From an uncultured Roseburia sp. (GTDB taxonomy: Bacteria > Bacillota_A > Clostridia > Lachnospirales > Lachnospiraceae), in contig CAAEAE010000015.1 in assembly GCA_900753715.1 (NCBI GenBank), positions 1-64,000 on the forward strand: a stretch of DNA of 64,000 nucleotides. Reading direction: 5' to 3'. A program made the translations under genes and the position numbers. Below the pieces are notes generated by a model. It worked only from the letters and a program-made list of their open reading frames with translations, was not told where the DNA came from and did no database searches. Below are positions 23,075 to 35,213 of this stretch, in pieces (position 1 is the stretch's first letter; every line of letters starts with the position of its first letter).

Positions 23075-23092
23075 AAACAGGGGGAAATGAGT

Positions 23093-23824
23093 ATGAAAAT
23101 TGCAAACAGAAACAGCATGGTATTAGTACGTGCCAGAAATGCAAGGCTGGCAAAGATAAGAGCTTACACACACAATATCCAGAAGTATAAAAAGACAACA
23201 AGCAGCAGTAGCAGTTCCAAGTACGGAAATCTTTTTCAGACGTTAAGCGCGATAAGACAGCAGAGCACAGATTCGTCAAAGGTACAGCAGATTGCGTCTG
23301 CCACGAAATTATCTTACGGCTATACGGTGATGGAGGACGCCGCTGAACGGCTTGATACACAGCTTACAAAGCTTCTCTCCAAGGAGAACGAATCCCTTTT
23401 TGAAGGGGATGGGACAGAGGCGCAGAAGGAAGTGAGCCGTTTTGTAAATAATTACAATATTGTGATGGGACGCTTAAATGATGCCTGGACGACTGCCGAT
23501 AAAAATTATGCGAAGAAACTGCAAAACGAGTTTAGTGCGTATAGCAGTGACCTGAAAAAAATCGGAATTACGCAGGGCAAAAACGGAACGCTGTCTGTTG
23601 ATGAGACTGCCTTAAAAAATGCAAAGGCGGAGGATATCAAGACAGTATTTGGGGCGGATGCTGTCTTTGCACAGAAGACGCAGGCCACCCTAAAGCAGAT
23701 TACGACATATGCAAAGGGGAAGATTCAGACCCTGGAGAAGCAGATCTATTCTGCCAGTGCAAACTATAACCGTTATGGAATGACGACCGAAAGCTCTGCA
23801 AGCATCTATAACAGACGAGGATAA
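23093..23824 (+). CDS. FliD C-terminal-like protein, possibly flagellum- or surface-related
   Basis: The 243-residue protein has a basic N terminus, a Ser run (about residues 35-42), a helical region, then LKKIGITQGKNGTLSVDETALKNAKAEDIKTVFG and a final helix TLEKQIYSASANYN. The GxLxxDxxxLxxAxxxDxxxVFG pattern is characteristic of the C-terminal part of FliD, the flagellar cap protein. It lacks the usual FliD N-terminal domain. ATG 23093 is preferred, because AGGGGG lies eight bases before it and too close to the ATG at 23087. Its role apart from the main flagellar operon is unknown. Confidence 0.6.
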   Translation: MKIANRNSMVLVRARNARLAKIRAYTHNIQKYKKTTSSSSSSKYGNLFQTLSAIRQQSTDSSKVQQIASATKLSYGYTVMEDAAERLDTQLTKLLSKENESLFEGDGTEAQKEVSRFVNNYNIVMGRLNDAWTTADKNYAKKLQNEFSAYSSDLKKIGITQGKNGTLSVDETALKNAKAEDIKTVFGADAVFAQKTQATLKQITTYAKGKIQTLEKQIYSASANYNRYGMTTESSASIYNRRG

Positions 23825-23830
23825 AAAAGC

Positions 23831-25021
23831 ATGAAAGAGACGCTGGAATTACAGGCGGCCGCAGAAATCCAGAGCGTGCGGGAGAAAGGGCAAAAGCTTG
23901 AGGAAAAGAGACGGCAGAAGCGAAAAATCGAAGGAGCAATTTTTCTGGAAATCATTCTGCAAAAAATCTGGGAATACGAGCAGGGAGAACTGTTTGACGG
24001 CACAATAAGCCGTCAGATGGCGCTTTTGGAAGCGGATATGACACAGGAGAACAAAACTGCCCAAAAATCAGACGAAGACTGTCTCTGCTTCTGGGAGGAA
24101 GGGCGTCTCTGGGAGCGGATGGTTCCGACGGGAGACATTTTAGAAATCAGTATTCCAAGACTAAGACAGGCAGTGGAGGAGTCCTACGACGAACTGATGC
24201 ATATGATTGCCGTGGTACAGCAGATTTGTGAAAATCCATGTTATGCGGTTTCCTCCGGGATTCTGGAGCGTTTTTTTAACGGAGAATGTAAAGAAGGAGA
24301 AGTTACAGAAAGATTCCGGGACTACTGTATCCGAAGATGGGAGCACGGGGAAGCGGATTTTATTCTTGCCTATGAGTATTTTTCCCATGCAAATGCCTGG
24401 TGGGCAGTGAAAGCAAATAACAGAGAAGGAGAAGCATTGGTACAGGGGTGCGGTCTGAACTGGACCGGAACCTCTTATTATAATGCTCTTTATTACTACA
24501 AATGGAAAAATATGCAGCAGAAAATCGAGGATGTTGCAGAAAAGGTGGCGGAATTTTTGGGATACGAGCCATTGAAATGTCAGGAAATACGGGCGAAAAG
24601 CCGGTTTCTCTGCGGGGGTGGACTTGACTTTCATGGTGTGTGGCAGTATGAGCAGCGGGCAAATAATTACCCGGAAAATCAGTACGGATTGCTGCGGGAG
24701 GAAGAAGAGCCGCCGGAGCACTATGCGTTTCTTTACCGGAACTCTTATGACGAGACGGACAAAGAGCGCTTAAGAGAGCTTCTTTGTGCGATGAAAGAAA
24801 AGCAGGAAGCAGTTTCCTGCCGCTTAGAAGCCATCGGCGTAAAGGAGCGCGCTTATCACAACGGAATGAGCTACCTGCTGCATTTCTGCCCGCAGGTTGG
24901 CATTGGAGAGGTGAAAAAAAGCACCTATGAACAGGCAATGAAGTTTACGGAAAACTTCCGCCTGTTCCGGGTGCATGGCTGTCTGGAGTGCCTATTTATC
25001 GCGGAGCAGACAAGCGAGTAA
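23831..25021 (+). CDS. unrecognised protein (396 aa)
   Basis: This 396-residue soluble, charged protein starts six bases after the FliD-like gene and is clearly in the same operon. It is mostly helical: residues 5-35 are a Glu/Lys/Arg-rich helix, followed by acidic and aromatic segments. Cys residues are scattered (YCIRRW, CGLNWTG, CGGGLDFHG, FCPQVGIG, HGCLECLFIA). No signal peptide, membrane segment or known motif is seen. The 3' end overlaps the convergent aminotransferase gene by 30 bases. I do not recognise the family. Confidence 0.75.
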   Translation: MKETLELQAAAEIQSVREKGQKLEEKRRQKRKIEGAIFLEIILQKIWEYEQGELFDGTISRQMALLEADMTQENKTAQKSDEDCLCFWEEGRLWERMVPTGDILEISIPRLRQAVEESYDELMHMIAVVQQICENPCYAVSSGILERFFNGECKEGEVTERFRDYCIRRWEHGEADFILAYEYFSHANAWWAVKANNREGEALVQGCGLNWTGTSYYNALYYYKWKNMQQKIEDVAEKVAEFLGYEPLKCQEIRAKSRFLCGGGLDFHGVWQYEQRANNYPENQYGLLREEEEPPEHYAFLYRNSYDETDKERLRELLCAMKEKQEAVSCRLEAIGVKERAYHNGMSYLLHFCPQVGIGEVKKSTYEQAMKFTENFRLFRVHGCLECLFIAEQTSE

Positions 25022-26086
25022 ACGGTCATTGTCTGCCGGGTTCATGATACAGAAGCGGATATATTTGTTGTCGAGAAACGGGAAGGTGGAACAGTCCCGA
25101 ATCATCATCTTCTCACGGATGGCGCGGTCAAATAAATCCTGTGAGGTCACATCATCCCGAAGAATGCGTGCTAAAATAAAGTTTCCACTCGGCGGATAAA
25201 CGCGGTAATCATTGGAGGCAGCAAGTGTGTCATACATTCTTGTCCTCTCTGATGTAATGAGCGTGCGTGTCTGATTGATATAATCGGTATCCCGGAACAT
25301 GGTCTCTCCGGCAACAACGGCAAGAGAGTTAATGGTCCAGGGATTTTTTCTGGTATTGATGGCCTTGATAAGGTCGCGGTTTCCGGTCACAGCGTAGCCG
25401 AGACGGAGCCCCGGTGCAGCGAAGAACTTGGAGGTTCCGCGCAGGATGACGATGTTGTTGTAATAATTGGTCAGCGGAATCGCAGAAATTTCGTCGGCAT
25501 TATTTGCAAATTCCACATAAGTCTCATCCACCATCACATAGATGTCATACTGTTTGCAGGCATCTAAGATGTGGCGCATTTCGTTCCGGGCGATGCAGGA
25601 AGAGGTCGGATTGTTTGGGTTACAGATGACGAGTAAATCGATGCTTTCACTGAGATGTGCGATAAAATCGTCTACATCAAGCCGGAAGCCGTCTTTTTCT
25701 TTTAACGGATAATAGAGGGTTGTCCCACCGCCGAGTGAAATTTCGCGCTCATATTCGGAATAAGTCGGACCGATAATCATCGCTTTTTTCGGATGTTCAA
25801 TCTGGATGAACAGGGAAATCAGTTCCGTGGAGCCGTTTCCGACAATGACATTTTCGTATTCCGTACCGCAATAACCTGCGATACATTTGCGCAGGGAAGT
25901 ATATTCTCTGTCCGGATAGGTGGTGATGGCGTCAATCTGCTCGGAGAGTGCAGTGCGAAGCAGAGGGGAGACGCCCAGGGGATTCACATTTGCGGAAAAA
26001 CTGACAATTTCTTCTTTACGGATGCCGTAGATTTCTTCTATTTTTTCCAAATCACTTCCGTGAAAATGGTCTTTGTGTTTTATCAT
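24992..26086 (-). CDS. class I/II PLP aminotransferase of the CobD/HisC group
   Basis: The 364-residue enzyme has FSANVNPLG, GNGSTELISLF, CNPNNPTSSCIARNEM, VDETYVEF and the PLP lysine in RGTSKFFAAPGLRLGYA. The opening HGSDLEKIEEIYGI resembles threonine-phosphate decarboxylase CobD, whose members begin with HGG, more than histidinol-phosphate aminotransferase. No cobalamin or histidine genes are near, so it may be an orphan with another substrate. GGAGGAG precedes its ATG on this strand. Its promoter region overlaps the start of the DUF5717 operon's promoter on the other strand. Confidence 0.85.
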   Translation of the reverse strand: MIKHKDHFHGSDLEKIEEIYGIRKEEIVSFSANVNPLGVSPLLRTALSEQIDAITTYPDREYTSLRKCIAGYCGTEYENVIVGNGSTELISLFIQIEHPKKAMIIGPTYSEYEREISLGGGTTLYYPLKEKDGFRLDVDDFIAHLSESIDLLVICNPNNPTSSCIARNEMRHILDACKQYDIYVMVDETYVEFANNADEISAIPLTNYYNNIVILRGTSKFFAAPGLRLGYAVTGNRDLIKAINTRKNPWTINSLAVVAGETMFRDTDYINQTRTLITSERTRMYDTLAASNDYRVYPPSGNFILARILRDDVTSQDLFDRAIREKMMIRDCSTFPFLDNKYIRFCIMNPADNDRLLACLLRDK

Positions 26087-26114
26087 TGATTACTCCTCCA
26101 AATTAGTTTATAAT
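26086..26114 (+). promoter_or_regulatory. promoter of the DUF5717 operon
   Basis: TTGATT (26086-26091) and TATAAT (26109-26114) are 17 bases apart. The -35 box overlaps the first base of the divergent aminotransferase start codon. Confidence 0.6.
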
Positions 26115-26116
26115 CT

Positions 26117-26144
26117 ATTATAGCCATTGCTTGGAAAAAAGCAA
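26117..26144 (-). promoter_or_regulatory. promoter of the aminotransferase gene
   Basis: On the minus strand TTGCTT (26139-26144) and TATAAT (26117-26122) are 16 bases apart. The two divergent promoters lie back to back, so one bound regulator could affect both. Confidence 0.55.
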
Positions 26145-26163
26145 ATAAAAAGTAAAAGCAGGT

Positions 26164-29100
26164 GTGGATTTGCGGAAACGGATACAACAACTGGCAAGGG
26201 GGAAATTTGAATATGCCAGACCGCTTCTTGAACTTTCAACGGATAAGATTGAGATTGAGGTTCTTGAGGGGAAGGACTACACGGGAGACTTTATCATTAC
26301 CAGTGCAAATCACGTGCCGATGCGGGGAACGGTTGAAACGTCTGACCAGCGCATGGAGTGTCTTACCCCACAGTTTGAGGGCGAGGAAGTCAGGATTCGA
26401 TATCAATTTCATACAGAGGGTTTACTTGAGGGTGATGTTCTGACGGGGAAATTTTTTCTTATCTGCAATCAGGGGGAATATGACCTTTCTTTTGTTGTGT
26501 CCGTATCCAGATTATATGCAGATTCTTCCATCGGGAAAATCCGCACATTAGGAGAGTTTGCAAAATTAGCAGAGGTGAGTGAGACGGAGGCGGTTCGTCT
26601 GTTTGAGTCTCCCAATTTCAAGAATATTTTAAAGGAAGAGGAAACAAAGGAGCGTCTGTTGTATGAGGGGCTTTGTAAGAGTAGTTTTCCGGGGCGTGCA
26701 CTCGAAGAGTTCCTGTTAGGGTGCAAAAGAAAGCAGCCCGTGAAGTTTTCACTGGGGAAGACAGAAGCATTTTTTGCGGAAGTAACACAGACAAGAAAAG
26801 AGCGTGTGGAACTTTATAAGGATACGTGGGGATGCGTGGATGCAAAAATTTCATCTGATGCAGAGTTCCTACGCCCGGCGCAGGCCAATTTGACAGGGGA
26901 TTCATTTATCGGAAACACCTGTCTATTAGAATATTATATCGATGCGGAAAAATTACATGGTGGAAGAAATTATGGCACAATACGGATTCACCTGCCGGGA
27001 CAGGAACTGGAGTTTGCGGTCTGTGCAAGGGGCGACAGAGAGCCGGAAGAACAGAAAGAGCGCATTCACACGGAGAGGGAGCGGCTGTCCGCAGAACTTG
27101 TGAACTGTTATATTGAGTATCGTCTGAAACGGCTTGTCACAGGAGTGTGGGCGAATCAGACGATAGAGCGGCTTAATCACCTTGCGGCGATGGATGCAAC
27201 AGAACTGATGTATGATTTGCTGAAAGCGCAGGCATTTATCATAAACAGACAGCGGCAGGAGGCCGTCTGGATTTTAGAAGACTTTAAACGGCAGTGGAAA
27301 GATACCGATGCCCCCATCTGGGGATATTATCTGTATCTGACGACGCTGTTGGAACGGGAACCTTCTTACGTAGACCGTGTGGGAAATGAAGTGGAGCAAT
27401 TATACCTCAGGCATTCCGAGAGCGGTCTGCTGTTTTGGATTTTACTCTTTTTAAAGGAAGAGTACTGCATGGATGGGGCGAAACGCTTCAAGGCGATTGA
27501 ACAGTTTATGAGAGCAGATGGGGAGCGAAGCGGAAAAAACAGCCCATATCTGTATCTGGAAGCCTATTATTTAATCTGGCAGGATCCATATCTTCTGACA
27601 AGGCTGACGCCTTTTACAGTCGGGCTTTTGAACTGGGCGGTACGGCATGAGGCGCTCACGAAAGAAATTGCCGTACAGGCAATAAGCCTCTTAGATAGCA
27701 GAAAGGAATTTGACCCATGTCTCTACCGGGTGTTAAATGCCTGCTGCAAGGTGGATGAGAGTGAGGAGACGATTACTGCGGTGTGTGCTTATCTGATTCG
27801 GAGTCAGTGTTATGAAAGACGCTATCACGTCTGGTATGCAAAGGCGATTGAACAGGAAATCCGGCTGACCGGATTGTATGAGGCATATCTTCTGACGATG
27901 GATGCCCATGCAGTGTCGGAGGTGCCACGTGTATTGCAGATGTATTTTCAGTACAACAGTGCGTTATCCTACCGTCAGAAGGCAGTGCTTTATGTCAATA
28001 TCATTGCGGGAAAAGAAAAACAGCCGGAAGTCTACCGTAAATATACAAGAAGCATGGAACAGTTTGCTTTAGAACAGCTTGAGGCGGGGCATATGGATGA
28101 CAACCTCGCAGTTCTTTACCGGGAATTGTTAGGACATGATATCTTAAATAAAGAAATTGCGTCCCATCTGGCGGGTGTCCTTTTCATGCACAAGTTTGTC
28201 TGCCTTGACAGCCGGGCGGCGCGTGTGATTGTGTGGGAGTATGCACTGAAAGAAGCGCGTGTGGTGACATTAAATGGGGGAGAGGCATATTTCCCGATTT
28301 ATACAGAAGATTTTTGTATTCTGGTGGAGGATGTTTACGGAAGAAGATTTACGGAAAGCAGTATTTCCTGGCAGTTAGAGCCGCTTATGAATCCGGGAGA
28401 ATGCATCGACCGCTGTATGGAACTTGCACCGGAGGAACTGCCGTTTTTGTTGTATCATTTTCGTAAAAAGAAGTCCTGGGAACAATTTGATGAAAACGAA
28501 AAGGCGGAATTGTCAAAACTGCTGGAAAATCCACAGGTAAGCGACCGGTTAAAAGCCTCCTGGTGTCTTTTAATCTTGCAGTTTTATAAGAACGACACCG
28601 GGGAAGAACATATGTTTTCTGTGGAGCCATATCTGAAAGAAGCGGAGTTTGAGATTCTGCCGGAGCAGACAAGAAGGTATCTGTTGAACCTGCTGGTGGA
28701 GATAAGACTTTATGAGAAGGCATATCAGATGGTGCGTTTATATGGCTATGAGAAGCTGGATTTATCCTGCCGGGTGGCGTTGTGCGGCTATGAGATTACA
28801 GCGGCAGGGTATGAGGAGGATGATTTCCTGCTCGGCTTTGTGCAGAGCACATTTCTCCTTGGAAAATACAGCGATGTGATGCTTGTCTACCTTTGTAAGT
28901 ATTATAACGGACCGACCAAACGGATGGAAAAACTCTGGCATGCAGCAGGGGAGTTTGACATTGATACGTTTGACCTGGAGGAACGCATCCTGACACAGAT
29001 GCTTTACACGACGGATTTTATCGGAGATGCGGGAGCAATCTACGACAGTTATTGTGCCGGCGGTGGAAGGGAACTTGTGTGTATGGCGTATCTGTCCTAC

Positions 29101-29736
29101 TTTGCAAACTGTTATCTTACGCGTGATATGGTGATTCCGGACAATGTATTTTTGCAGATAGAGCAGCTTTTACAGAAGAATGCAGAACTAAACGCGGCAT
29201 GCCGGATTGGATTTTTAAAGTATCTTTCTGCCGGAAAAGAATGGTCAGATACAAGACTTCAAATTGCAGAGCGGATTCTTGCGGACTGTATTGGAAAAAA
29301 TATTTCATTTTCCTTTTTTAAACAGCTTGATGCGCGGCTTGTAAACCAGTATCAGCTCAGGGATAAATTTTTTGTTGAATATCATGCAGATGCCGGGACA
29401 CAGGTGCGAATCCGCTATTCCTTAGAAGGCGGCGAGTTCCGTGAGGAAGAGTTAAGTGAAGTATATGAGGGGATTTTTGTGAAACAGTTTGTTTTGTTTT
29501 TCGGAGAAACTCTGCAGTATTATATCCTGGAGGGCGAAGGCATTAAGGAGCAGGTGACAAAAAGCGGAACGGTCGAAAATCATGATGTTCCGGGCAAGCA
29601 GGCACAGGGAAGATATGAGATGCTAAATGAAATGCTCATGTCTGTGACCTTACAGGATGAGGCGGCAATGACGCGGCTTATGAAAAAGTATTACGGTTAT
29701 TGCCATGCAGCAGAAGTGGTATTTAAGCCTTTATAG
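26164..29736 (+). CDS. DUF5717-family very large protein (1190 aa)
   Basis: The first gene of a four-gene operon encodes 1190 residues. Residues ~20-120 look like a beta-sandwich (IEIEVLEGKDYTGDF, MRGTVETSD, LSFVVSVSRLY). Residues ~290-1040 are a long helical solenoid with recurrent Leu/Tyr-rich helix pairs, and ~1070-1130 again read as beta strands (VRIRYSLEGGEF). There is no signal peptide or clear membrane helix, so it is probably cytoplasmic. I recognise it as DUF5717, a family known mainly from Lachnospiraceae with no assigned function. The start is GTG 26164, or TTG 26170, which has AGGTG nearer. Its partners suggest a scaffold in a membrane-attached complex. Confidence 0.85.
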   Translation: MDLRKRIQQLARGKFEYARPLLELSTDKIEIEVLEGKDYTGDFIITSANHVPMRGTVETSDQRMECLTPQFEGEEVRIRYQFHTEGLLEGDVLTGKFFLICNQGEYDLSFVVSVSRLYADSSIGKIRTLGEFAKLAEVSETEAVRLFESPNFKNILKEEETKERLLYEGLCKSSFPGRALEEFLLGCKRKQPVKFSLGKTEAFFAEVTQTRKERVELYKDTWGCVDAKISSDAEFLRPAQANLTGDSFIGNTCLLEYYIDAEKLHGGRNYGTIRIHLPGQELEFAVCARGDREPEEQKERIHTERERLSAELVNCYIEYRLKRLVTGVWANQTIERLNHLAAMDATELMYDLLKAQAFIINRQRQEAVWILEDFKRQWKDTDAPIWGYYLYLTTLLEREPSYVDRVGNEVEQLYLRHSESGLLFWILLFLKEEYCMDGAKRFKAIEQFMRADGERSGKNSPYLYLEAYYLIWQDPYLLTRLTPFTVGLLNWAVRHEALTKEIAVQAISLLDSRKEFDPCLYRVLNACCKVDESEETITAVCAYLIRSQCYERRYHVWYAKAIEQEIRLTGLYEAYLLTMDAHAVSEVPRVLQMYFQYNSALSYRQKAVLYVNIIAGKEKQPEVYRKYTRSMEQFALEQLEAGHMDDNLAVLYRELLGHDILNKEIASHLAGVLFMHKFVCLDSRAARVIVWEYALKEARVVTLNGGEAYFPIYTEDFCILVEDVYGRRFTESSISWQLEPLMNPGECIDRCMELAPEELPFLLYHFRKKKSWEQFDENEKAELSKLLENPQVSDRLKASWCLLILQFYKNDTGEEHMFSVEPYLKEAEFEILPEQTRRYLLNLLVEIRLYEKAYQMVRLYGYEKLDLSCRVALCGYEITAAGYEEDDFLLGFVQSTFLLGKYSDVMLVYLCKYYNGPTKRMEKLWHAAGEFDIDTFDLEERILTQMLYTTDFIGDAGAIYDSYCAGGGRELVCMAYLSYFANCYLTRDMVIPDNVFLQIEQLLQKNAELNAACRIGFLKYLSAGKEWSDTRLQIAERILADCIGKNISFSFFKQLDARLVNQYQLRDKFFVEYHADAGTQVRIRYSLEGGEFREEELSEVYEGIFVKQFVLFFGETLQYYILEGEGIKEQVTKSGTVENHDVPGKQAQGRYEMLNEMLMSVTLQDEAAMTRLMKKYYGYCHAAEVVFKPL

Positions 29737-29760
29737 AAAATTCCATTGCAGAGGAGAATT

Positions 29761-31011
29761 ATGGAAAGTCGGTATTATCTTGGAATTGATCTTGATGATT
29801 CCAATGCGGTCATCAGTTATTATACAACAGAAAAAAAGGAGCCGGAGACGGTAAGTCCCATTGCGGGAAGTGAACTGTTCCAGATACCGGCAGTGCTGAC
29901 CAAAAAGCGTGGAATCGGGCAATGGTTTATCGGGGAGGATGCCAAAAAGTTAGCGGCACTGCAGGGAAACGAGTGCTGTGAAAATCTGCTCACAAAAGCC
30001 ATAAACCGGGAAAAAGTCTTAGTGGAAGAAATGTGTTATGAGGCGGAGGAACTGCTGGCGCTGTTTTTAAAAAAATTACTGCTTCTGCCGGGGCGCCTTG
30101 GCGGAGGAAGACGGGCAGATAAGCTTGCGATTACGTTGGAGAGCCTGTCGGAGAGAGCAGTAGAGCTGTTTTTGAATGTGACGGCGCAGCTTGGATTTTC
30201 ACCGGAGCAGCTGATGCTGCTTGACCGCAGGGAAAGCTTTTATTATTTTTCATACAGCCAGAAGGAAGAACTCTGGCTGCATGACATCTGTCTGCTTGAC
30301 TGCCGTGGCGAAAAAGTGCACTGCGCATTGGTGGAGCGCAACCAGAGGACGGTTCCGCAGATGATTACGCTCACCGAAAAAGAAGGGGTGCTATCCACAG
30401 AGGATAAGGACGGTTCGTTTCTGGCTTTTTTGCAGGAAGTGTTTGCGGGGCGTGTGATATCGGGTGTCTATCTGACCGGAGACGGTTTTGAGGGGGATTG
30501 GATGAAACGCTCCCTGGCATTTATGTGCAGAGGGCGCAGGGCATTTATCGGGAAAAATCTTTATTCCAAGGGAGCCTGTCATGCGGCATTTGCCAGAGAA
30601 CATCCCGATTTGTGGCAGTTTGTATACATGGGGGAAAATGAGCTGAAGCTCAATGTGAGCCTGAAAGTGGAAAATCACGGGCATACGGAGCTTTTTTCCC
30701 TGCTGGATGCGGGGACAAGCTGGTATGAGGCACAGGGGGAGTGCGAGGTGATTCTTGCGGAGGAGCCGGAGATTGATTTCTGGCTTCAGCTTCCCGGAAG
30801 CAGGGAGGCAAAGGTAGAGAAGCTAAACCTCGTTGATTTGCCGGAGCGTCCGAAACGGGCAAGCCGGGTGCGGATTACGGCAAAACCGGTGTCCGACAGC
30901 GCTGTGCGGATACAGATAAAAGACCTTGGATTTGGCGAATTTTTTAAAAGCTCGGATAAGGTGTGGGAATACGTGATGTCGATTGAAGGAGGAGCCGGAT
31001 GGGAAAATTAA
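29761..31011 (+). CDS. DUF5716-family protein with Hsp70-like fold
   Basis: The 416-residue protein begins MESRYYLGIDLDDSNAVISY, a phosphate-1-like motif of the actin/Hsp70 fold. FQIPAVLTKKRGIGQWFIGE follows, matching the DnaK region that reads P-S-V-V and V-G-x-x-A. Further ASKHA-like segments are LLDRRESFYYFSYSQKEELW and VISGVYLTGDGF. Residues after ~300 form a beta-rich domain (ELKLNVSLKVENHGHTELFS). It is an Hsp70-like ATPase candidate, shorter than DnaK and without the lid. ATG 29761 has GAGGAGA upstream. It lies 24 bases after the DUF5717 gene and overlaps the next by 13 bases. Confidence 0.82.
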   Translation: MESRYYLGIDLDDSNAVISYYTTEKKEPETVSPIAGSELFQIPAVLTKKRGIGQWFIGEDAKKLAALQGNECCENLLTKAINREKVLVEEMCYEAEELLALFLKKLLLLPGRLGGGRRADKLAITLESLSERAVELFLNVTAQLGFSPEQLMLLDRRESFYYFSYSQKEELWLHDICLLDCRGEKVHCALVERNQRTVPQMITLTEKEGVLSTEDKDGSFLAFLQEVFAGRVISGVYLTGDGFEGDWMKRSLAFMCRGRRAFIGKNLYSKGACHAAFAREHPDLWQFVYMGENELKLNVSLKVENHGHTELFSLLDAGTSWYEAQGECEVILAEEPEIDFWLQLPGSREAKVEKLNLVDLPERPKRASRVRITAKPVSDSAVRIQIKDLGFGEFFKSSDKVWEYVMSIEGGAGWEN

Positions 31012-31817
31012 TCTTATGCGAAAAGCCTCTGGCAGCACTGCCTTATTATATTGAGAATCTTTCTTTGAATATTTATTCGGCAGAGGAATTGTGCTATTAT
31101 ATAGAAAATAATGTTTATCTGTTAGAACAGGACTTTATGGACGATGAGCTGATAGAGTGGATTGGAAAGGAACTGCACGAGCGGAAGTTAGCAGAAAAAC
31201 TTCTGGATATCAGGAAGAATAACGGGACATTGTCTTCGTTTGTAACCTGTATCCTCAGCAAAATCGGTTATACACCGCCAAACCGCATTGCAGAGATTGC
31301 ACAGATTTTAAAGGAGATGGACGGCAAGTCTGCATTTGCCTGTGCAAAGATTCGTGCCGACCGCTACTTGCAGAGAGGGCGGTATCTAAATGCACTCTCC
31401 ACCTATCAGGCACTTTTAGCATCTGAGGATGCTGCAAAAGAAGATGCTGTACTGCGCGGCAGCCTGCTTCACAATATGGGCTGTGCGTATGCAAATCTGT
31501 TCCTGTTTGTACAGGCGGCGCAGGCTTTTGAAAAAGCATACCAGGTGACAGGAACAAAAGAGTCACTTGAACAGTGTCTGGCGGCGTTTCGGTTCGCACA
31601 TGACGAAAATGGGTTTTACGAAACTGCAAACCGTTACGGAGTCAGTGCAGAAGAACAGGAATGCATCAGCGGATATCTCACGAAACTTAGCAGAGATGAG
31701 GATATTACAGCATTTGAAAAAGAATTGGATGATGCAAAGCAGAACGGCCAGACAGCAAAAAGGTTAGAACTTTTAGAACAGTGGAAACAGGAATACCGCA
31801 GAAATTGCAGGTTATGA
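30999..31817 (+). CDS. TPR-type helical repeat protein
   Basis: The 272-residue protein has an N-terminal alpha region with YYIENLSLNIYSAEELCYYI. TPR-like pairs follow around residues 118-200 (ADRYLQRGRYLNALSTYQAL; LLHNMGCAYANLFLFVQAAQ; AFEKAYQVTGTKESLEQC), then a coiled-coil C terminus. Alternating small and aromatic positions in the Gly-Cys-Ala-Tyr-Ala block are typical of TPRs. It overlaps the Hsp70-like gene by 13 bases, implying coupled synthesis. TPR proteins often dock on chaperones, which fits its partner. No membrane segment is seen. Confidence 0.82.
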   Translation: MGKLILCEKPLAALPYYIENLSLNIYSAEELCYYIENNVYLLEQDFMDDELIEWIGKELHERKLAEKLLDIRKNNGTLSSFVTCILSKIGYTPPNRIAEIAQILKEMDGKSAFACAKIRADRYLQRGRYLNALSTYQALLASEDAAKEDAVLRGSLLHNMGCAYANLFLFVQAAQAFEKAYQVTGTKESLEQCLAAFRFAHDENGFYETANRYGVSAEEQECISGYLTKLSRDEDITAFEKELDDAKQNGQTAKRLELLEQWKQEYRRNCRL

Positions 31818-31827
31818 GGAAAACAGA

Positions 31828-32997
31828 ATGCTTTTTTTCAAGAAAAAACAAAAAGAAAAGAACTTTGAGAAAAAAATGGAAGAACTGAATGTATCGGTTC
31901 TTTCGGATAAGGATTTAAAAAAATCAAAGCGGATTGAGCAGCATGTAATTGAATGTTTAGAGCAGATTATAGATATTTCCAAGGTGCGTGAGGAAGAACT
32001 TGAGGAATATCAGGTTGTAAATTCCTATCTCGAAGACATTCAGATTCTCGAAGATATGCCGGAAGAGGAACGGGGAAAGATTAATGATGTTGCTTCAAAT
32101 GTAGTGCAACTGAATGCGGCACGGACGGAATTTTTAAATTCAGCTAAGAAAATTTCAGACGCCCAGTTTGCACTGTTAGAGCAGAAAGAGAAGGAGGTCC
32201 CGGCAGCCATCAAAAGACTTTCGGCAAATGAAAAATATCAGGAAACCATCAAGCGGGATATGAAATACTTAGAGAGGGAAAAATCAGAATGGAAGTTTCA
32301 AAAGGAATATCTGTCCCATCAGAAAAAACGTCTGACCAATCTGCTTTATGTGTTCGTCGGACTCGCAGTGACGGCAGCAGTTCTTCTTTTGATTTTACAG
32401 TTTGGATTTCAGGTGAAACTCGAGTATGTGTGGATGGGATATGTACTTGTGACGGTGGCAGCCATTTCATTCCTATACCTTAAGATGATGAAGGATTCAT
32501 CGGATATTGCAGTGGCAGAGCGCAACGCAAACCGTGCGATTCAGCTGCAGAACAAAGTGAAGCTGCGCTATGTCGGAATTACAAATGCAATCGATTATGC
32601 CTGCGAGGTGTATCATGTAAAAAGTTCCAAGGAATTAAACCAGGATTGGGAATATTATATGGATGCAGTGCGGGAGAGAGAACGTTATCAGCGCACCAAT
32701 GAAGATTTGGAATACTTTAACGGGCGTCTGGTGCGGATGCTTACAAAGTATAAGATGTATGATACCCAGATATGGGTGGTACAGGCGCAGGCACTTATAG
32801 AGCCAAAAGAAATGGTTGAAATTAAGCATGCGTTAATCACAAGACGTCAGAAGCTGCGTGGAACCATGCAAGACCAGATGACAGAAATGCGGTCTTTGCG
32901 CGGGGAAGTGGAACAGCTTCGTGGCAGAATCGGAACGATGAAAGATAAGATTGAGGATATTATTCTGGCAGTAGACCAGCTTATGGAAGCAGAATAA
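31828..32997 (+). CDS. membrane coiled-coil protein of the DUF5717 operon
   Basis: The 389-residue protein starts MLFFKKKQKEKNFEKKMEEL. It has a helical region to about residue 165, two adjacent membrane helices (NLLYVFVGLAVTAAVLLLIL and YVWMGYVLVTVAAISFLYL) and a second long coiled coil from about residue 225 to the end (EMRSLRGEVEQLRGRIGTM). Both ends should be cytoplasmic. It is the last gene of the operon, 10 bases after the TPR gene, and a strong terminator follows. It could anchor the other three proteins to the membrane. I know no characterised relative. Confidence 0.82.
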   Translation: MLFFKKKQKEKNFEKKMEELNVSVLSDKDLKKSKRIEQHVIECLEQIIDISKVREEELEEYQVVNSYLEDIQILEDMPEEERGKINDVASNVVQLNAARTEFLNSAKKISDAQFALLEQKEKEVPAAIKRLSANEKYQETIKRDMKYLEREKSEWKFQKEYLSHQKKRLTNLLYVFVGLAVTAAVLLLILQFGFQVKLEYVWMGYVLVTVAAISFLYLKMMKDSSDIAVAERNANRAIQLQNKVKLRYVGITNAIDYACEVYHVKSSKELNQDWEYYMDAVRERERYQRTNEDLEYFNGRLVRMLTKYKMYDTQIWVVQAQALIEPKEMVEIKHALITRRQKLRGTMQDQMTEMRSLRGEVEQLRGRIGTMKDKIEDIILAVDQLMEAE

Positions 32998-33011
32998 CAG
33001 GATTCGAAAAG

Positions 33012-33043
33012 AGCAGCCGTCTTCAGGGGAAGACGGCTGCTTT
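33012..33043 (+). terminator. terminator of the DUF5717 operon
   Basis: AGCAGCCGTCTTC (33012-33024) pairs perfectly with GAAGACGGCTGCT (33029-33041) around a 4-base loop, ending TTT. Confidence 0.88.
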
Positions 33044-33911
33044 AAAAGTGCCTCAAATTTGGCAGCGGGAAGCGGGCGGTAATAAAGAAAACCCTGCGCG
33101 CTCGTACAGCCGTAGGATAGAAGAAAATCCTGCTGGGAGACATCTTCCACACCTTCAGCGATGATTTGGAAGTTTAAATCATGAAGCATATCGAGTGTGT
33201 GGGAGAGAACACTTCTTGTTTTTGGGTTATCGAGGTCCGTGATGAAACTTCGGTCAAGTTTAATCTCGTCAACCGGCTGGTCTTTTAACATGGTAATGGT
33301 AGAATATCCGGTACCGAAATCATCCATGGAAAGCAGGAAGCCATGCTGTTTTAAGTATTTCATATGGTCGTACATCGTATCGGCATCCTCTAAAAAACCG
33401 CTTTCTGTAAGTTCTAACGGGACATATTCCAGCGGACTAAGGCTTCACCTCCAATTCTGATGCTGTTCCAAGGCATCTGCAATATCATTTTCAATCAGCT
33501 TATCAAGCATCATTCGATGACGCATTTCCTCATCAAAAAAAGCATAGGTGGCATAAAATTTTCCTTTGATGGTGTTAAGCGCCATAGTCGCGTAATCACG
33601 CATCAGACTAATCGACATCATAGGAGAGTCCGCAATGCAGATTCCAAATGCCGGAAGTGTCCGGCAGGCAATCTTATGGGCACGGATGCGGCTGTTTAAC
33701 TGCACTACAATGTCAACCAGGTCTTTTTTGGTCAGGAAAGGGGTTAAAAGTCCGAAAATATCTGCATGGAAATGGGACAGTACGGTATGTTCGCCCATCA
33801 ATTCGCACATGGCGTCTGCCACACATTTTACAGATACAGCTCAAAATCCCCGGGAGCCATATCTTTTTGAATTTGTTTGGCACTGACAGCTGTGTTAAAC
33901 TTCTGTTCCAT
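33012..33911 (-). pseudogene. decayed GGDEF/EAL-type cyclic-di-GMP gene
   Basis: Three same-strand pieces belong to one ancestral gene. A 27-residue start MEQKFNTAVSAKQI (from 33911) is stopped at 33828. A degenerate GGDEF-like piece with FHADIFGLLTPF and RTLPAFGICIAD (33822 to about 33450) is stopped by TGA inside NWR-stop. The C-terminal part of an EAL domain (33443 onward) has LEYVPLELTES, FLLSMDDFGTGYST, EIKLDRSF and QIIAEGVED, and runs into the terminator. About 100 residues of the EAL domain, including the EAL motif itself, are missing at the junction near 33445. With stops and a deletion it cannot make an active phosphodiesterase. Confidence 0.8.
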
Positions 33912-34074: not shown

Positions 34075-34341
34075 ATGAGAAATTATGGAATGTCCGGCAT
34101 GGCAGACAGAGACTGCGGCAGGCGGCAGGAAATGCAGCACTCTGCAAAAGGCAGAACGGCGGACTGCGACAGCCGCGAAGGCGAGTCCTGCCTGCGGGAG
34201 CCGGAATTTGCAGTTGCCATGGCATATGTTCCGTGGCAATATTTCAAGGAAACCTACGAGCTGGATAAAGCGTTGGAAATCGGAACGATTTTCCCGGAAT
34301 TAGACCGTCCGTTTATGGGCAGAAGGGGGATGGTTCGATGA
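34075..34341 (+). CDS. cotJA: spore coat-associated protein CotJA
   Basis: The 88-residue protein ends with the CotJA core: FAVAMAYVPWQYFKETYELD, ALEIGTIFPELDRPFMG. An N-terminal stretch of about 40 residues is Cys-, Arg- and Gly-rich and variable. GAGCAGGAGG lies before the ATG. It overlaps cotJB by four bases. Proteins of this operon assemble on the developing spore in the mother cell. A CATAAGAT at 34038 resembles a SigE-type -10 box, but I could not place a convincing -35. Confidence 0.9.
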   Translation: MRNYGMSGMADRDCGRRQEMQHSAKGRTADCDSREGESCLREPEFAVAMAYVPWQYFKETYELDKALEIGTIFPELDRPFMGRRGMVR

Positions 34342-34601
34342 TGGGGCAGATGAATCAGGCACAGTTATTACACTGGATTAATATGGTAAGCTTCGCCGTT
34401 GTGGATATTTCCCTCTATCTGGATACACATCCGGAGGATGAGGAAGCATTAAAATATTTTAATCACTATATCAATCTGAGACGGGAGGCAATGGAGGCAT
34501 ATGCAAAGCAGTTCGGACCGCTTGTAATTGATTTGGCAGGCGGGCGATGTGACTGGGATTGGGCAGATATGCCGCTGCCGTGGGAAGGAGGATCCTGTTA
34601 A
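34338..34601 (+). CDS. cotJB: spore coat protein CotJB
   Basis: The 87-residue helical protein has LLHWINMVSFAVVDISLYLD, then HPEDEEALKYFNHYINLRRE and the Trp-rich end CDWDWADMPLPWEGGSC, all typical of CotJB. Its start codon overlaps the cotJA stop (ATGA), and its stop touches cotJC. Within the CotJ complex it probably links CotJA and CotJC; this is known only in outline for the family. Confidence 0.92.
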   Translation: MMGQMNQAQLLHWINMVSFAVVDISLYLDTHPEDEEALKYFNHYINLRREAMEAYAKQFGPLVIDLAGGRCDWDWADMPLPWEGGSC

Positions 34602-35213
34602 ATGTGGAATTATGAGAGAAGACTCGAATACCCGGTCAATATCACAAGACCGAATGCAAAGATTGCACAGATTATCATAAGCCAGTATGGTGGTCCCGAC
34701 GGCGAAGCAGCTGCGTCTTTCCGTTACCTGTCACAGCGCTATTCCATGCCCTACCGGAAGGTGGCAGGATTACTGACGGATATTGGCACGGAGGAGCTGG
34801 CCCATCTTGAAATGGTCGCAGCAATTGTACGGCAGCTCACAAAGGGCTTAAGTGCAGAAGAACTGGAGACTGCCGGATTTGCACCTTATTATGTGGATCA
34901 CACGGCCGGAATCTGGCCGCAGGCAGCGGGCGGAATCCCGTTCAATGCCTGTGAATTCCAGTCAAAGGGAGATGCCATCACAGATTTGTTTGAAGACCTT
35001 GCAGCAGAGCAGAAGGCACGCACAACTTATGACAATATCTTACGCCTGGTAAAAGATCCGGAGGTATGCGACCCAATCCGCTTCTTAAGGGCACGGGAAG
35101 TTGTGCATTTCCAGCGCTTTGGAGAGGGACTCCGAATGGTACAGGAAGAACTTGACAGCAAAAATTTCTATATCTGTAATCCGGAATTTGATCCTGGATG
35201 CGGAAATAGCTGA
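34602..35213 (+). CDS. cotJC: spore coat protein CotJC (manganese catalase family)
   Basis: The 203-residue protein is a member of the manganese catalase family, with four-helix di-metal ligands visible in GGPDGEAAASFRYLSQRYSM, TDIGTEELAHLEMVAA, DLAAEQKARTTYDNIL and FLRAREVVHFQRFGEG. It begins MWNYERRLEYPVNITRPN, typical of CotJC. The gene starts directly after the cotJB stop with GGAAGGAGG before it. In the spore coat it may break down peroxide; its presence supports a sporulating host. Confidence 0.94.
   Translation: MWNYERRLEYPVNITRPNAKIAQIIISQYGGPDGEAAASFRYLSQRYSMPYRKVAGLLTDIGTEELAHLEMVAAIVRQLTKGLSAEELETAGFAPYYVDHTAGIWPQAAGGIPFNACEFQSKGDAITDLFEDLAAEQKARTTYDNILRLVKDPEVCDPIRFLRAREVVHFQRFGEGLRMVQEELDSKNFYICNPEFDPGCGNS

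Follow-up and report, generated by a model that had tools for sequence, protein, structure and literature searches.

Among the Hsp70 proteins, the non-canonical Ssz1 of the eukaryotic ribosome-associated complex (RAC) carries no lid, does not hydrolyze ATP and acts through the β-part of its substrate-binding domain (SBDβ) inside a permanent complex, as described in PMC7083937. For large scaffolds, PMC4094338 describes the TRAPPII subunits TRAPPC8-11, in which ASH/PapD-like domains are joined to a TPR solenoid. Here, we describe an operon from an uncultured Roseburia sp. (GCA_900753715.1, contig CAAEAE010000015.1), located within a stretch of 64,000 nt of the forward strand that is referred to as the window throughout. 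It comprises four co-directional open reading frames (ORFs) on the + strand, as taken from the ORF list of the window: the giant DUF5717 protein P1, the DUF5716 protein P2, the TPR protein P3 and the membrane protein P4 (Table 1). A literature search whose scope excluded most subscription journals found no publication on the function of this operon, and searches against NCBIfam and PHROGs gave nothing useful. Judging from sequence comparison and predicted folds, we propose that the operon encodes a family-wide, uncharacterized, putative complex around a degenerate Hsp70. Our preferred explanation, held with somewhat better than even confidence, is a cytosolic assembly of P1, P2 and P3, in which P2 would be a non-cycling pseudo-Hsp70 that serves as docking or holding module, with P4 as an optional tether.

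A Three-Gene Core in the Lachnospiraceae

Lachnospiraceae are among the most abundant gut bacteria of humans and animals, and the core of the operon is nearly universal in the members sampled. P2 was detected in 155 of 160 genomes of the family of Roseburia faecis (G001), while all 14 control genomes were negative; three of the five P2-negative family genomes carry P1, leaving only G423 and G484, i. e., 2 of 160, without either. A search for P1 in 40 genomes, all but one taken from the family sample, was positive in 38; it missed G423 and also G416, where only P2 is present. In the wider class sample, P2 matches were present in 17 of 391 genomes, 16 of them over the cut-off, and of these 16, six belong to the family sample and two more come from the same family. 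Nearly all genomes carry one copy of P2; among the matches listed, only G521 and G529 have two.

Gene order is similarly constant. From 80 regions around P2 matches, one (L126, a sub-cut-off match with no operon) was dropped; the remaining 79 include 78 with P1, 77 with P3 and 35 with P4, and 77 hold P1-P2-P3 complete and in this order. These figures exclude a second set of 77 P1-selected loci from public contigs, several of which end early, which is included in the spacing and neighbor counts. This set, in which P2 was found in 72, P3 in 69 and P4 in 62 loci, is richer in P4 (62/77) than the family and may overlap in species with the 80 regions. Most of its records are labeled Roseburia, Agathobacter or Lachnospiraceae, and Blautia, Eubacterium, Lachnobacterium and Clostridiales contribute one or a few each; L025, labeled Muribaculaceae, has gene lengths equal to those of the Blautia-labeled L024 and apparently forms a near-duplicate pair with it. 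Distances of at most 50 bp, overlaps included, separate P1 from P2 in 141/150, P2 from P3 in 133/141 and P3 from P4 in 90/96 cases (156 loci with a hit). Chance linkage is excluded because the same arrangement recurs in relatives down to 26–30 % P1 identity. In the Roseburia inulinivorans DSM 16841 draft (L056), the P1, P2 and P4 frames are shortened or split, by sequencing error or decay.

Moreover, P2 and P3 are fused into one ORF of 698–723 amino acids (aa) in four genomes of one clade (L168–L171). In L168, the P2 of the window aligns up to residue 421 of the fusion and its P3 from residue 434, and in the two fusions searched against Pfam, weak TPR matches come after DUF5716_C. Hydrophobic segments are rare in the core, with none in 138/157 P1, 133/149 P2 and 140/141 P3 ORFs. 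Taken together, constant order, near-universality in the sample, fusion and the scarcity of hydrophobic segments support a cytosolic complex, which might act as the chaperone or assembly machine outlined in the earlier note. That P1, P2 and P3 are simply co-transcribed and act separately appears highly improbable to us, given the fusion and an order and tight spacing that persist over deep divergence despite changing flanks.

A Degenerate Hsp70-Like Protein

By fold comparison, P2 possesses a nucleotide-binding domain (NBD) of the actin/ASKHA fold followed by an SBDβ, i. e., the two-domain layout of an Hsp70. The SBDβ-like part is also recovered as a very weak profile stretch (0.3 bits) in register with the SBDβ of DnaK, and the SBDα lid is absent, as P2 ends at residue 421, just past the last SBDβ strand (406–412). 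The earlier note had read P2 as an Hsp70-like, lid-less ATPase from the letters of the window; the fold searches agree with the ASKHA fold and the missing lid, whereas the ATPase part is not supported, the nucleotide site being degenerate. None of 96 P2 proteins matches Pfam HSP70 (PF00012) at E 0.01. In the 109 P2 proteins examined, subdomain IIB is absent, with 59–78 residues between the motifs as compared to 135–143 in five Hsp70 ORFs, and in the NBD-only fold matches P2 aligns over 255–277 of about 380 residues. The Thr position of the phosphate-1 motif is acidic in 81/109, and neither the first two Gly of phosphate-2 together nor the second Gly of the adenosine motif occurs in any of the 109 proteins, so that the phosphate-1, phosphate-2 and adenosine motifs of an ATP-driven Hsp70 are not found as a set. 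Having lost subdomain IIB, which clamps the adenine, as well as the phosphate-2 loop and the lid, P2 probably works without an ATP cycle, and with its NBD core and SBDβ kept it could be a fixed docking or peptide-holding module, as yeast Ssz1 is for RAC.

The Hsp70 fold would also be in keeping with a working ATP-driven machine, in which P2 hydrolyzes ATP with atypical residues, P3 acts as TPR co-chaperone and P1 as client platform; the Gly and Asp of phosphate-1 are kept in 109 and 100 of the 109 proteins, respectively, and a cleft motif, YLxG[DE]GF, is conserved. However, the missing subdomain IIB, the unconserved phosphate-2 loop and the mostly acidic phosphate-1 Thr position speak against such a machine. 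In addition, visual inspection of how the commonest neighbor families begin revealed no J-domain or GrpE-like protein (no dedicated family search was made), and overall we regard ATP-driven action as unlikely.

Of the stretches compared, conservation is highest at the former adenosine motif and in the next helix (mean majority frequency 0.69 and 0.75; overall 0.51), which, together with the retained phosphate-1 Gly and Asp, suggests that something may still bind the cleft. Conceivably, P2 could be a sensor or adaptor whose cleft accommodates another ligand, either a small molecule or a peptide, and thereby switches the assembly with P1 and P3. The strong conservation of cleft-side motifs despite the lost ATP motifs would be explained in this way, but it may merely keep the lobes of P2 closed or provide the interface with P1 or P3, and we consider ligand sensing improbable.

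The Putative Scaffold P1 and the TPR Protein P3

P1 is matched by PF18984 (E 8.8e-264) and PF18983 (E 5.7e-101), P2 by PF18980, DUF5716_C (E 7.1e-102), and the DUF5717/DUF5716 scores of 877.9, 338.2 and 340.8 bits lie far over the curated cut-offs of 25, 25 and 34.7, in line with the names assigned earlier. P1 would be a very large scaffold with two PapD/ASH-like domains, two helical solenoids and further beta domains. In the fold search, which is well tested for residues 16–290 only, its N-terminus shows the PapD-like beta-sandwich fold of the ASH/PapD-like (MSP) superfamily, and together with the predicted secondary structure this backs the previous description of a beta-sandwich plus helical-solenoid protein. 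The P1 profile gave no match to solved proteins by sequence at E 1, and a likeness of the solenoids to NatA, Ski and Paf1-type subunits was not used owing to large root-mean-square deviations or weak E-values. As start codon, TTG 26170 is most likely and preferred over GTG 26164, since the former is invariant in 12/12 aligned sequences and the latter is not.

P3 itself yields a weak TPR match in Pfam, below the curated cut-off, and its family profile clearly finds TPR proteins, which upholds its earlier designation as such. It may be a TPR adaptor that probably sits directly on P2.

P4, an Optional Membrane Protein

Two hydrophobic segments are present in 95/95 P4 orthologues longer than 350 aa, in agreement with the two-helix membrane protein proposed before. 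Its long helical parts are probably coiled coil, as judged from sequence and weak keratin matches, the latter being the only hits to solved proteins by sequence (E 0.5–0.9). Residues 64–175 weakly match the PADLOC candidate model PDC-M14B (E 3.1e-6; no match of P1–P3 at E 1), possibly reflecting a shared helical or coiled-coil pattern; this was the only indication of a known anti-phage defence system.

The earlier note had treated all four genes as one unit and named co-conservation across Lachnospiraceae as a check on it; P1-P2-P3 are indeed tightly co-conserved, P4 is not. It was found in 70/160 family genomes, a lower bound owing to contig breaks (73 matches at E 0.001, of which three marginal ones with E 5e-4 to 8e-4 were dropped), and in 35/79 regions. 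The unit is thus better described as a core of three genes to which an anchor may or may not be added. On a FastTree tree of P1, gain and loss of P4 need at least ten changes, which marks it as a repeatedly lost or gained accessory; where present, its hairpin probably anchors the assembly in the membrane.

About 85 residues of P1 (759–844; 754–836 in L195) are deleted in one clade of eight (L139, L140, L143, L153, L195, L196, L203 and L206), which is also without P4, and the deleted segment could be a P4 contact. Short P1 proteins number 12 among 43 P4-negative regions and one among 35 P4-positive ones (L149, with P1 split into two ORFs). We did not count this pairing as independent evidence, since 8/12 short P1 stem from one deletion event.

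Besides the retained phosphate-1 residues and conserved cleft stretches of P2, several further points weigh against the assembly as we propose it. The identity between P2 and DnaK is low, so that individual residues may have been paired a few positions off, and the motif loss may be compatible with retained nucleotide binding; Ssz1 itself binds ATP, as stated in PMC7083937. The P2-P3 fusion is a single evolutionary event (one change on the P1 tree), and the proposed tether is absent from over half of the family sample. Finally, P1 is without a clear overall structural relative in profile and fold searches, and one P1 lineage (L125) is without both N-terminal sandwiches, with solenoid parts retained.

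Locus Layout and Genomic Context

With the ATG 29761 of P2 taken as start, the gaps P1-P2, P2-P3 and P3-P4 amount to 24, −13 and 10 bases, precisely the tight linkage reported before. Position 26086, previously given as the beginning of the operon, belongs to the divergent aminotransferase gene, which starts there and shares its intergenic region with P1. Promoter-like sites in this region are no more numerous than in shuffled versions of it; the TATAAT box is invariant in 12/12 aligned sequences, the first hexamer (TTGATT) is not. Downstream, the strong terminator claimed earlier holds as a very strong hairpin, but its 3′ side ends in merely three U, followed by AAAA, for which reason we grade it as terminator-like rather than as a textbook terminator; a simple terminator scan did not list it.

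Table 1. Features of the operon and its surroundings, with positions in the window.
Feature	Position	Strand	Basis or remark
Divergent pyridoxal-phosphate aminotransferase, not part of operon	24992..26086	-	Aminotran_1_2 Pfam match
Promoter-like site TTGATT-17-TATAAT, upstream of P1	26086..26114	+	10/12 matches
P1, DUF5717 scaffold-like protein, 1190 aa	26164..29736	+	ORF, Pfam, fold search
P1 residues 18-118, PapD/ASH/MSP-like beta-sandwich 1	26215..26517	+	
P1 residues 193-292, second beta-sandwich, similar type	26740..27039	+	
P1 residues 296-669, alpha-solenoid	27049..28170	+	helix pattern; TPR/HAT-type solenoids match only weakly in the fold search
P1 residues 675-740, third beta domain	28186..28383	+	predicted secondary structure
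P1 residues 748-1062, second helical solenoid	28405..29349	+	predicted secondary structure
P1 residues 1068-1138, C-terminal beta domain	29365..29577	+	predicted secondary structure
P2, DUF5716 pseudo-Hsp70 (putative), 421 aa from TTG	29746..31011 (ATG 29761)	+	ORF, Pfam, profile and fold comparison
P2 residues 10-287, Hsp70 NBD-like, no subdomain IIB, degenerate phosphate-2 loop	29773..30606	+	
P2 residues 303-412, SBDβ-like domain, no lid after it	30652..30981	+	fold matches
P3, TPR protein, 272 aa	30999..31817	+	unassigned N-terminal domain, then TPR (about 123-194 of the family profile)
P4, accessory membrane protein, 389 aa, two-transmembrane hairpin between long helical parts	31828..32997	+	
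P4 transmembrane hairpin, residues about 172-190 and 200-219	32341..32484	+	second segment placed by eye
Hairpin closing operon, 15 pairs, 3′ of P4	33010..33043	+	-28.6 kcal/mol, z -5.0

The flanks vary among loci. The commonest upstream neighbor is the divergent aminotransferase family, at position −1 in 65/152 loci, others being far rarer; valS, purF, purB, metK, an amino-acid ABC transporter and CotJ were named by eye from sequence. In the window, the spore-coat genes cotJA-cotJB-cotJC (34075–35213, +; CotJC assigned by a manganese-catalase match and position) adjoin the operon, and of the 77 P1-selected loci, 27 have a member of the CotJC-containing family nearby and 25 a member of the CotJB-containing family. 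Together with the membrane protein P4 and the Hsp70-like StkA of Myxococcus, a regulator of exopolysaccharide according to PMC4319316, this neighborhood might hint at a machine dedicated to one envelope process such as sporulation coat, motility, secretion or exopolysaccharide. Yet P2 occurs about equally often in genomes that have no SpoIVA over the cut-off (49/51) and in those that do (106/109), a hand-made cross-tabulation in which the 51 may be inflated by incomplete genomes. P2 is thus not restricted to spore formers, the sporulation link was rejected and sporulation as the sole role is unlikely; with varying flanks and a dispensable P4 in addition, we give a dedicated envelope machine little credence.

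Between P4 and cotJ lies the remnant of an EAL-domain gene (32833–33822, −), in which one ORF contains the C-terminal part of the EAL domain (profile 137–236) and a separate ORF upstream of it has no Pfam match at E 0.01; this looks like a broken cyclic di-GMP gene. Further away, an ORF at 23087–23821 (+), just downstream of a LytTR response regulator, has a FliD_C match (flagellar; E 2.8e-8, two stretches).

A mobile-element origin was likewise rejected: P2 had no match in the plasmid collection, and its relatives encoded by five "Bacteriophage sp." records (MT835719.1 and four more), which come from human faecal samples and are without annotation, are possibly bacterial DNA in viral preparations.

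Comparison with Known Systems

The trio is present in practically every sampled member of the Lachnospiraceae, mostly with a single P2 copy, and P2 has no plasmid match and is matched in few genomes of the class sample. This pattern suggests a function that is lineage-defining and probably important, for which we found no counterpart. If P2 is a pseudo-Hsp70, it represents a natural test of Hsp70 function without an ATP cycle and with SBDβ kept. It shares with DnaK and canonical Hsp70 (PF00012) the fold of both domains and remote profile similarity, but differs in having no IIB, no lid and no phosphate-2 Gly-Gly motif. A short bacterial Hsp70, which we take to be HscC-like, overlaps a TPR gene in a Lachnospiraceae genome (G440, locus L160), much like P2-P3; unlike P2, it retains the canonical GIDLGTTNS motif and a near-normal motif spacing of 135, and the pair lies far from the P1–P3 operon in the same genome.

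The closest working model for P2 is Ssz1, although its structure (4gni_A) was solved with ATP and magnesium, in contrast to the degenerate nucleotide site of P2, and its partner is a J-protein in a eukaryotic complex, whereas P2 would be partnered by a TPR protein and a giant scaffold. P1 resembles TRAPPC8-11 of TRAPPII in its layout of ASH domains and TPR-type solenoid, by analogy only, and domains of the central-apparatus/centrosome ASH proteins HYDIN and CEP192 are among its fold matches. The ASH domains of TRAPP are C-terminal, however, while the P1 sandwiches are N-terminal, and TRAPP, HYDIN and CEP192 are all eukaryotic. Extending this analogy, one may tentatively picture an essential or near-essential cytoplasmic complex of undescribed kind, in which a giant ASH/solenoid scaffold surrounds a TPR adaptor and a pseudo-Hsp70 that has no IIB and holds no nucleotide; it would play in bacteria the part that ASH-TPR scaffolds for trafficking or chaperone relay play in eukaryotes, passing clients from the ribosome or DnaK to membrane-bound or large assemblies, a possible though rather doubtful scenario.
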